DNA from: Pseudogemmobacter humi
Lineage (GTDB): Bacteria; Pseudomonadota; Alphaproteobacteria; Rhodobacterales; Rhodobacteraceae
Reading direction: 5' to 3'
Length of the DNA: 64,000 bases
NCBI RefSeq assembly: GCF_900609055.1
Contig: NZ_UXAW01000048.1
Coordinates: forward strand, 1 to 64,000
Shown: positions 30,519-59,660 of the stretch, one piece after another
Layout of the letters: every line of letters starts with the position of its first letter
How positions within the stretch are numbered: position 1 is the first letter of the stretch
The notes under the pieces: model-generated
What the model was told of the DNA's origin: nothing
The model's input: only the letters and a program-made list of their open reading frames with translations
Databases searched by the model: none
Made by a program: the position numbers and the translations under genes

Positions 30519-30571
30519 CGTTCGTCCTCCAGTTGCGACGGATGGCCGGGCATGGGGATCTGGATCCGATG

Positions 30572-30656
30572 CACCTTCCCTCCGCCGGTATGATCCGGTT
30601 CAGGTTCAACGGGTCCGCTTGCGCATCTCAGCCCTTTAAGGGGGCACCCCGAGGTG
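30572..30656 (-). promoter_or_regulatory. TPP riboswitch (THI element) controlling thiBPQ
   Basis: On the minus strand the leader contains the conserved THI-box parts in order: CGGGGTGCCC, GGCTGAGA, GGACCCGTTGAACCTGA and CCGGATCATACCGGCG, then GGAGGGAA. The closing P1 stem pairs CACCT (30652-30656) with AGGTG (30572-30576). The 3' end is 53 bp before the thiB start, a distance compatible with sequestering the Shine-Dalgarno. Confidence 0.96.
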
Positions 30657-30692
30657 AGGCCGAGCATAGGGGATTGTGGTGCCGCCGCAAGA

Positions 30693-31814: not shown

Positions 31815-31918
31815 CTGGCGCCAGGGGGATTGCGGGTCAGCACAGGGGAAAAGCCGGGCAATCCATCGGGCGCGTGATCCCGATGCGGTCCGACATCACG
31901 CCAGAGAACTGGCGCCAG
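31815..31918. promoter_or_regulatory. Pair of CTGGCGCCAG palindromes between terC-like gene and aroC
   Basis: The 10-bp perfect palindrome CTGGCGCCAG occurs at 31815-31824 and 31909-31918, centres 94 bp apart (nine helical turns), in the 262-bp divergent intergenic region. Such phased operator pairs can bind one dimeric regulator at both sites. The first begins 21 bp upstream of the terC-like start. No regulator is assigned. Confidence 0.35.
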
Positions 31919-32056
31919 AGGGGCCCGGCCCGCAGATGCCAGATGGGGGCGGGCGCGGCCATTTCAACCCGCGCCATCAACTTTTTGTGGATTTCGGTTG
32001 AAGCGGCGCCGCGCCGGGGGCTATGGCGCAGGGGTATCATTCCCGGAGCCCGCGCC

Positions 32057-57791: not shown

Positions 57792-58478
57792 ATGGCCCAG
57801 CTTCGCAAGATCCTTCTGGTGGACGACGACGACGACCTGCGCGAGGCGCTGTCGGAACAACTGGTGATGACCGAGGATTTCGACGTGTTCGAGGCCGGGA
57901 CCGGCGCCGAGGGGATGGAGAAGGCCAAGGCCGCGATCTACGATCTGGTGATCCTGGACGTGGGCCTGCCCGACACCGACGGGCGCGAATTGTGCCGGCG
58001 GATGCGGAAATCCGGGGTGAAATGCCCGATCATGATGCTGACCGGGCACGATACCGACAGCGACACCATTCTGGGCCTCGACTCGGGCGCCAATGACTAT
58101 GTGACGAAGCCGTTCAAATTCCCGGTGCTGCTGGCCCGGATCCGGGCGCAGCTGCGCACGCATGAGCAGTCGGAAGACGCGATCTTCCAGCTTGGCCCCT
58201 ATACTTTCCGCCCGGCGCAGAAGCTGCTGGTCGACGAGAAGGACCGCAAGATCCGCCTGACCGAGAAAGAGACCAATATCCTGAAATACCTCTACCGCGC
58301 GCAATCGGGCGTGGTGGCGCGGGATGTGCTGCTGCATGAGGTCTGGGGCTACAACGCCGGGGTGACCACCCATACGCTGGAGACCCATATCTACCGGCTG
58401 CGCCAGAAGATCGAGCCCGATCCCTCGAACGCGCGGCTGCTGGTGACCGAGAGCGGTGGCTATCGGCTGGTGGCGTAA
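57792..58478 (+). CDS. cenR: OmpR-family response regulator, CenR-like
   Basis: A 228-aa regulator. The receiver has LLVDDDDDLREALSEQLVMTEDF, phospho-acceptor D56 (VILDVGLPDTDG) and KPFKFPVLLARIRAQLR; the winged helix has IRLTEKETNILKYLYRA, LLHEVWGYNAGVTTHTLETHIYRLRQKIEPD and LVTESGGYRLV. The wording is close to CenR, the essential envelope regulator of Caulobacter and Rhodobacter. No kinase (CenK) gene is adjacent; this is usual. SD GAAAGGA. The 3' region continues into a hairpin and the sRNA-like units. Confidence 0.8.
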   Translation: MAQLRKILLVDDDDDLREALSEQLVMTEDFDVFEAGTGAEGMEKAKAAIYDLVILDVGLPDTDGRELCRRMRKSGVKCPIMMLTGHDTDSDTILGLDSGANDYVTKPFKFPVLLARIRAQLRTHEQSEDAIFQLGPYTFRPAQKLLVDEKDRKIRLTEKETNILKYLYRAQSGVVARDVLLHEVWGYNAGVTTHTLETHIYRLRQKIEPDPSNARLLVTESGGYRLVA

Positions 58479-58501: not shown

Positions 58502-58542
58502 CTGGTGTCTTTTTTCCGCGATATGGGAAAGGCTGACACCAG
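58502..58542 (+). terminator. Hairpin in the cenR 3' region
   Basis: CTGGTGTC (58502-58509) pairs with GACACCAG (58535-58542), with a further TTTCC/GGAAA-type inner stem. It starts 23 bp after the cenR stop. No U run follows, so it may protect the 3' end or serve as an RNA processing site rather than terminate. Confidence 0.5.
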
Positions 58543-58555
58543 AGAGTTCCCCTTG

Positions 58556-58622
58556 CCGTGTCGGGGTTATGACACGGTTCCTCCCTGTTGGACTGGCCGG
58601 GCCCTCGGGTCCGGCCTTTTTT
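58556..58622 (+). ncRNA. Putative small RNA, unit 1 of a tandem pair
   Basis: It has a three-part RNA shape: hairpin CCGTGTC-loop(8)-GACACGG (58556-58577), an unpaired linker TTCCTCCCTGTTGGACT (58578-58594), and an intrinsic terminator with a 10-bp stem GGCCGGGCCC/GGGTCCGGCC (58595-58616) followed by TTTTTT. The 14-mer CTCCCTGTTGGACT in the linker recurs exactly in unit 2. No clear promoter was seen; release from the cenR 3' UTR is possible. Family unknown to me; pyrimidine-rich CUCCC linkers recall antisense-type trans-acting sRNAs of alphaproteobacteria. Confidence 0.6.
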
Positions 58623-58700
58623 CAACCTGAGGGAGAGTTGCGAAAATGCCATGACGGCGCGCTGCGTGATCGGCCCCCATTCGCAAAAGCCAGATTTCAT

Positions 58701-58778
58701 GGTACGTAATTACCACTCCCTGTTGGACTTTGCCCGGTGTTTCGCGTGATCCGTATCAGCGTGCCGGGCTTTCTTTTT
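58701..58778 (+). ncRNA. Putative small RNA, unit 2 of a tandem pair
   Basis: Same layout as unit 1: a short hairpin GGTA-cgtaat-TACC (58701-58714), the identical 14-mer CTCCCTGTTGGACT at 58716-58729, then a long terminator stem GCCCGG (58732-58737)/CCGGGC (58764-58769), with CGC/GCG and TGAT/ATCA pairs inside, and a TTTCTTTTT tail (58770-58778). The hairpin sequences differ from unit 1 while the linker is unchanged. A weak promoter TTCGCA-17-TACGTA (58680-58708) is possible; if used, the transcript starts just before the linker. xth starts 46 bp downstream. Confidence 0.58.
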
Positions 58779-58824
58779 GGCCCCGCGCTTGTTAGGGCTC
58801 GGGCCGTGCCACAGGAGAGACCCG

Positions 58825-59613
58825 ATGCCCTTCACCCTCGCCACCTGGAACATCAATTCCGTCCGTCTGCGCGAGGGGCTGGTGTCGCGGCTGCTGAGTT
58901 CCGAACTGCCGGATGTTCTGTGCCTGCAAGAGATCAAGACCCCGCTCGACAAATTCCCGACCGAGGGGTTTGCGGCGCTTGGCTACCGTTACATGGTGGC
59001 GCGCGGGCAAAAGGGCTACAACGGCGTGGCGATCCTGTCGAAACTGCCGCTGACCGATGCGGGCGACCGCGATTATGCCGCGCTCGGCCATGCAAGGCAT
59101 GTGGCGGCGCGGCTTGAGAACGGCGTCACCATCCATAATTTCTATGTCCCGGCGGGGGGCGACATTCCCGACCGCGCGCAGAATGTGAAATTCGGCCAGA
59201 AGCTGGATTTCATCGCCGAGATGCGTGACGTTTTTCATGCCGACCGGCCGGAGAAGGCGATCCTCGTCGGCGATCTGAACATCGCGCCGCGCGAGGATGA
59301 CGTGTGGAATCACAAGGCTTTGCTGAAGATCGTCAGCCATACGCCGGTCGAGGTCGAGCATCTGGGCGCGGCGCAGGATGCCGGGAAATGGGTGGACATC
59401 ACCCGTCAGGACATGCCCGAGGGGCGGCTCTATTCCTGGTGGAGCTATCGCAGCCCCGACTGGAACGCCGCCGACAAGGGCCGGAGGCTGGACCATATCT
59501 GGGCCACGCCGGACATCTCGAACGCGGGCCACGGCTCGCGCATCCTGCGCGACGCGCGGGGCTGGGAGCAGCCCTCGGACCATGTGCCGGTTTTCGCGAC
59601 ATTCGATCTTTAG
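58825..59613 (+). CDS. xth: Exodeoxyribonuclease III
   Basis: A 262-aa AP endonuclease/3'-5' exonuclease of base excision repair. EEP motifs: LATWNINSVRLRE, VLCLQEIKT (catalytic Glu), GYNGVAILSKLPL, HNFYVPAGGD, ILVGDLNIAPREDDVW (GDxN), SWWSYR, RRLDHIWATPDI and SDHVPVFATFDL (SDH). The start is ATG 58825 with AGGAGAGACCCG upstream. It converges on tlpA, with a twin palindrome between. The sRNA-like units lie upstream. Confidence 0.97.
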   Translation: MPFTLATWNINSVRLREGLVSRLLSSELPDVLCLQEIKTPLDKFPTEGFAALGYRYMVARGQKGYNGVAILSKLPLTDAGDRDYAALGHARHVAARLENGVTIHNFYVPAGGDIPDRAQNVKFGQKLDFIAEMRDVFHADRPEKAILVGDLNIAPREDDVWNHKALLKIVSHTPVEVEHLGAAQDAGKWVDITRQDMPEGRLYSWWSYRSPDWNAADKGRRLDHIWATPDISNAGHGSRILRDARGWEQPSDHVPVFATFDL

Positions 59614-59615
59614 GC

Positions 59616-59660
59616 GCAAATTTCTTCGAAGAAATTTGCAAATTCGTTCAAACGAATTTG
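59616..59660. repeat. Twin-palindrome intergenic element, site B
   Basis: First palindrome: GCAAATTTCTTC (59616-59627) and its exact complement (59628-59639). Second: CAAATTCGTT (59639-59648), CA, AACGAATTTG (59651-59660). It starts 3 bp after the xth stop and ends 5 bp before the tlpA stop. The inner TTTCTT..AAGAAA and TTCGTT..AACGAA cores match site A, whose flanks are CCGG instead of CAAA. A terminator for both genes is likely. Confidence 0.7.

Follow-up and report, generated by a model that had tools for sequence, protein, structure and literature searches.

The 346-bp gap between cenR and xth in Pseudogemmobacter humi contains two exact copies of a 14-nt sequence, CTCCCTGTTGGACT, each of them followed by a terminator, which raises the question of what, if anything, is transcribed from this gap besides the cenR mRNA. 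The window analysed here, to which all coordinates below refer, comprises 64,000 nt (positions 1 to 64,000 of contig NZ_UXAW01000048.1); corresponding loci of related bacteria were compared with it. The genes and the two copies are located as follows.

57792–58478, + strand: cenR, an OmpR-family response regulator gene, orthologue of RSP_0847/ompR-1 and host mRNA of SorX (open reading frame; relatives)
58581–58594, + strand: seed copy 1, CTCCCTGTTGGACT, exact match
58716–58729, + strand: seed copy 2, CTCCCTGTTGGACT, exact match
58825–59613, + strand: xth, exodeoxyribonuclease III, the downstream neighbour (open reading frame; conserved neighbour in relatives)

The positions of the two copies agree with an earlier note on this DNA. 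We estimate at roughly 0.68 the probability that the gap holds two sRNA genes with one common anti-Shine-Dalgarno seed, the first of which is SorX and the second a promoter-driven sRNA that we name SorX2.

The 14-nt motif is shared beyond chance and conserved next to cenR

A direct repeat of 14 nt inside 346 bp has a chance expectation of ~4 × 10−4. Apart from the two exact copies, no further matches with up to 2 mismatches were found in the window (0.25 expected by shuffling), and the whole genome contains three copies, the third at position 5940 of contig C98. The earlier note had proposed other cenR–xth gaps as the place to look for conservation of the motif, and there it was indeed present: in 59 of the 78 named Rhodobacterales loci with enough sequence it lies at most 400 bp past the cenR stop codon. 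The view of this stretch as a conserved single-stranded seed is thereby supported.

Unit 1 is the sRNA SorX

58502–58542, + strand: hairpin within the cenR 3′ UTR, where pre-SorX would be expected (fold −21 kcal/mol, z −3.2)
58549–58622, + strand: SorX sRNA (Rfam RF02784; fold z −3.5)

In the Rfam covariance scan unit 1 reached 70.1 bits with the SorX model RF02784 (cut-off 46.6), while it scored 32.4 bits with the SorY model (cut-off 111) and 20.1 bits with the alphaR8/MmgR model (cut-off 41). Both by covariance model and by location, 71 bp past the cenR stop codon, unit 1 is the already known sRNA SorX of Rhodobacter sphaeroides. It consists of a 9-bp hairpin (58555–58578), the seed, a 9-bp terminator (58595–58616) and a U tract extending to 58622. 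A further match to the SorX model, at C18:25720 (28 bits), lacks the motif and was set aside.

The host gene is well conserved (80 named relatives, 84–96% identity); RSP_0847 has been identified as CenR (PMC9275681) and appears in a table of RpoHI/RpoHII regulon genes (PMC3441632). In R. sphaeroides, SorX was reported to be processed from the 3′ end of the ompR-1 mRNA, and its RNase E processing and Hfq binding are described for that species alone. By homology, SorX would be made here by processing of the cenR mRNA 3′ end, and the suggestion that cenR gives rise to a 3′-UTR-derived sRNA is true of unit 1. The block beginning at 58502 is a separate hairpin inside the cenR 3′ UTR, and conservation of its sequence was looked for in relatives but not found.

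Unit 2 carries a promoter-like element in place of the hairpin

58700–58708, + strand: TGGTACGTA, predicted extended −10 promoter of sorX2 (TGnTA in relatives)
58715–58778, + strand: SorX2, predicted primary sRNA with the seed at its 5′ end (12 of 13 genomes of the genus; 24-sequence alignment)

Unit 2 has the 14-nt core and the terminator arrangement in common with SorX, but it lacks the 5′ hairpin, appears to have a promoter of its own and, with 24.8 bits, remains below the SorX cut-off that unit 1 exceeds. None of the six scanned loci with SorX2-type copies reached this cut-off. With the SorY model unit 2 scored 18.5 bits (cut-off 111), and no alphaR8/MmgR match was listed for it in the scan. 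Its terminator (58732–58769) is bulged and longer than that of unit 1, and is followed by a U tract (58770–58778), the tail after the terminator being TTTCTTTTT. The unit 2 fold is weaker than that of unit 1 (z −2.6 for 58690–58779 and z −1.5 for 58702–58779).

The linker and the terminator of unit 2 as first described were borne out, whereas the hairpin drawn at 58702–58714 is weak, and no conserved 5′ hairpin was found before the seed when the loci were aligned on the motif. This spot is taken by TGGTACGTA. Of 24 second copies, 18 have the pattern TGnTA 16–17 nt ahead of CTCCC, as opposed to 0 of 74 SorX copies, and a near-invariant AC directly precedes the motif in second-copy loci. The “same layout” assigned to both units therefore had to be abandoned, since the predicted promoter of unit 2 occupies the place of the unit 1 hairpin. 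The extended −10 puts the predicted start of SorX2 at ~58715, with the seed at the very 5′ end; the RNA is predicted to be 45–65 nt long and to start at the seed, give or take 1–2 nt. Judging from conservation, SorX2 would be transcribed from this promoter, begin with 5′-(A)CCUCCCUGUUGGACU without any 5′ hairpin and end at its own terminator. A scan for the sigma-70 consensus did not find a promoter in the window, and the extended −10 emerged only from the comparison of loci.

The first 13 nt of the seed are invariant across 24 aligned second copies, whose terminators differ in both sequence and length; as these copies were gathered by near-exact seed match, the invariance is partly built into the sampling, and the predicted promoter element is independent evidence for unit 2. 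Since stem lengths vary, the RNAalifold consensus of the alignment contained no terminator stem; the SorX2 terminators were judged from single-sequence folds and no covariation is claimed. Unit 2 may have arisen from unit 1 by duplication, as had been proposed, though only ~14 nt and a generic terminator are common to both. SorX-type true tandem duplicates, complete with 5′ hairpins, were found at two loci (L067 and L111), thus tandem copies arose in more than one form. A literature search of incomplete coverage did not find a description of SorX2, which looks like an unannotated shorter relative of SorX with its own promoter.

SorX2 is retained in relatives and separable from both neighbouring genes

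Of the 13 genomes of the genus, 12 have a second motif copy between sorX and xth, 135–320 bp or ~1.4 kb downstream of the first, and several other named relatives have one as well, e.g., Pseudotabrizicola formosa and Rhodobacter sp. Har01. The idea that SorX2 is sometimes placed after xth proved wrong, as the distant copies reflect a gene inserted between sorX and the copy. In G001 and L038 this is an opposite-strand gene of MFS type; G010, L053 and L137 have the same sorX–sorX2 spacing, their inserts not being annotated separately.

These arrangements bear on the alternatives. Unit 2 could be a second product processed from cenR read-through, with both RNAs derived from the 3′ UTR in tandem like CcsR1-4, and its closeness to unit 1 on the same strand, as well as the genuine hairpin-bearing SorX tandems mentioned above, would fit this. 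We nevertheless consider it improbable: the strong terminator at 58595–58622 separates the units, a conserved promoter-like element precedes unit 2, and where the opposite-strand MFS gene intervenes, read-through from cenR cannot make SorX2. Neither does it seem likely, although this deserves somewhat more credit, that unit 2 is a terminated xth leader, whose promoter drives xth and whose terminator serves as an attenuator or yields a 5′-UTR-derived sRNA. Within the genus sorX2 precedes xth by ~90–170 nt, in the same orientation, and the published UpsM is a precedent for a leader-derived sRNA. At five loci, however, sorX2 is at least 500 bp away from xth (L043, L050, L051, L058 and L118), with a small secreted-protein ORF between them in L043 and L050, thus it is not simply the xth leader, and a pure attenuator does not explain a seed identical to those of SorX and SorY.

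The weaker fold of unit 2 and the missing sigma-70 consensus match in the window would agree with a motif copy that arose by chance or has decayed, lies next to a backup terminator and is not transcribed. We regard this as very improbable, given that 12 of 13 congeners as well as other genera have retained the second copy, and that a promoter-like element precedes it at constant spacing. A promoter-driven SorX2 next to SorX is the reading followed below.

Possible regulatory elements upstream of sorX2

58635–58657, + strand: degenerate copy of the GTTGTGGCCAAAAAGCCATGG upstream element, which roughly half of the relatives have as a conserved sequence before sorX2

A TTGAT-N4-ATCAA-like box with at most 2 mismatches (one is perfect) is centred 42–45 nt before the motif in 8 of 26 second copies. 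This is near −41.5 from the predicted SorX2 start, where a class II FNR site would lie, and suggests low oxygen as the SorX2 signal in some relatives. The box is degraded in the window (4 mismatches), and we make no claim of FNR control in this genome. The GTTGTGGCCAAAAAGCCATGG element lies ~65–85 nt upstream in about half of the second-copy loci and, among the loci fetched, the pattern was found upstream of sorX2 only; no known regulator was recognised for it.

The seed complement precedes genes of nutrient uptake

The complement of the seed CUCCCUGUUG is CAACAGGGAG and includes a Shine-Dalgarno sequence. In this genome six sites have CAACAGGGAG 1–14 nt before an ATG, and all are at uptake genes, namely those for two SBP_bac_8, one SBP_bac_3, one Peripla_BP_5 and one OpuAC protein and one ammonium transporter. 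Since other alphaproteobacterial genomes have 0–8 such sites, we did not accept enrichment by count only as evidence and used the identity of the downstream gene instead, in comparison to two permuted controls. These controls gave 18 and 10 hits versus ~49 for CAACAGGGAG outside sRNA genes.

Of 38 genes examined behind CAACAGGGAG in the genus, 28 encode substrate-binding proteins (Pfam scans covered 25 of the 38 gene products, and the remainder were assigned by similarity to those). The corresponding figure in the permuted controls was 6 of 18 (Fisher p 0.007), two substrate-binding proteins of the second control being judged from their N-termini, and in other alphaproteobacterial families ~12 of 34 genes look, by their N-termini, like substrate-binding proteins (p 0.002); both p-values are optimistic, as the genomes are related and not independent. 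The result for the other families implies that the bias is partly generic, possibly owing to widespread related anti-Shine-Dalgarno sRNAs such as alphaR8, and the excess in the genus is moderate. At individual loci of far families (L298, L302, L304, L305, L307, L310, L311 and others) CAACAGGGAG followed by ATG stands before substrate-binding proteins and one ammonium transporter; these sites may likewise reflect related anti-Shine-Dalgarno sRNAs.

Duplexes of seed and target are predicted at −19 to −23 kcal/mol. Exact seed-complement sites outside sRNA genes were absent from genomes G001 and G005. Repression of potA is a published trait of SorX; no exact complement was found near 12 starts of PotA-type ATPase genes, whose start codons are uncertain. 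The published targets, a spermidine transporter for SorX and a malate transporter for SorY, fit the uptake theme. An envelope role, once suggested by the neighbouring cenR, is not indicated, as nutrient transport is the function common to these targets and to the genes identified here behind the seed complement. We infer that the seed most likely pairs with CAACAGGGAG where ribosomes bind the mRNAs of periplasmic substrate-binding proteins and of other uptake genes; the pairing, probably with Hfq, would block translation, whereby different signals would lower nutrient import.

A proposed set of sRNAs with one seed under several promoters

The third copy in this genome belongs to a SorY-like unit upstream of purL (C98:5899–5980, equal to L006 1460–1543), which is conserved in most congeners. 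SorY is its best match, at 54.8 bits, below the strict cut-off of 111. Upstream of it, CTTG...CCATAAAT resembles, by eye, an RpoH promoter, which agrees with the control by RpoH published for SorY. SorY (RF02651) has the identical core CCUCCCUGUUGGACU and, as published, its own promoter, but unlike unit 2 it has a 5′ hairpin, and in this genus it is located upstream of purL. One seed may thus be placed under three controls in this genome, those of SorX, SorX2 and the SorY-like copy.

Further copies were noticed in congeners. A fourth SorX-like unit with the same seed, away from both cenR and purL, occurs in L128, L131 and L132 (genomes G009, G011 and G012), and that of L128 exceeds the SorX cut-off (51.8 bits). 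In G003 two more copies of the 13-mer (L122 and L123) have another context in common, TTGGGTCAATGGG-CACCTCCCTGTTGGACTGGCTAG, with a possible ATG start closely after.

A single-stranded CCUCCCU seed before a terminator, as seen here, is also a property of the alphaR8 family, with MmgR (RF00519) and SisA-D of Caulobacter, and the SisA-D siblings have separate promoters (PMC12559287). The alphaR8 core, however, is UUUCCUCCCU and usually lies beside an N-formylglutamate amidohydrolase gene, while the units described here remain below the alphaR8 cut-off and depart from its 10-nt core (unit 1 has GUUCCUCCCU, 9 of 10 positions, and unit 2 UACCACUCCCU). In Sinorhizobium and Agrobacterium, the sibling sRNAs AbcR1 and AbcR2 (alpha-r15) have common anti-Shine-Dalgarno seeds and different promoters, and repress mRNAs of substrate-binding proteins (PMC8844928), but they differ in seed sequences and structure and possess two anti-Shine-Dalgarno motifs per RNA. 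In design, one-seed siblings under different promoters would resemble AbcR1/2 and SisA-D; by sequence, the units appear to belong with SorX and SorY.

What is new here is a predicted, unannotated and promoter-driven sibling that adds to a characterised group of stress sRNAs. It suggests that SorX-type RNAs may, like AbcR in rhizobia, act on a broad regulon of nutrient uptake beyond their published targets, and the FNR-like sites of relatives allow a direct test of whether a single seed integrates signals of oxygen and of stress. Tentatively, and at slightly less than even odds, we propose that SorX2, with its start at the seed, is an sRNA not described before but widespread in Rhodobacterales, and that it links the SorX/SorY regulon to a signal of its own (low oxygen via FnrL in some lineages, another regulator elsewhere). 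Together the three RNAs would then make up a circuit with one seed and several promoters that shuts down the synthesis of substrate-binding proteins.

Other RNA elements in the window

The window also contains a TPP riboswitch (RF00059, 75.2 bits) at 30560–30661 on the − strand and, ~1.2 kb from it, a terC RNA motif (RF03067, 62.9 bits) at 31881–31936, likewise on the − strand. Directly after xth, at 59618–59660, there is an AT-rich self-complementary stretch (aaatttcttcgaagaaatttgcaaattcgttcaaacgaattt), and L006 has a comparable stretch behind a LysR-type gene, near 1270–1310.
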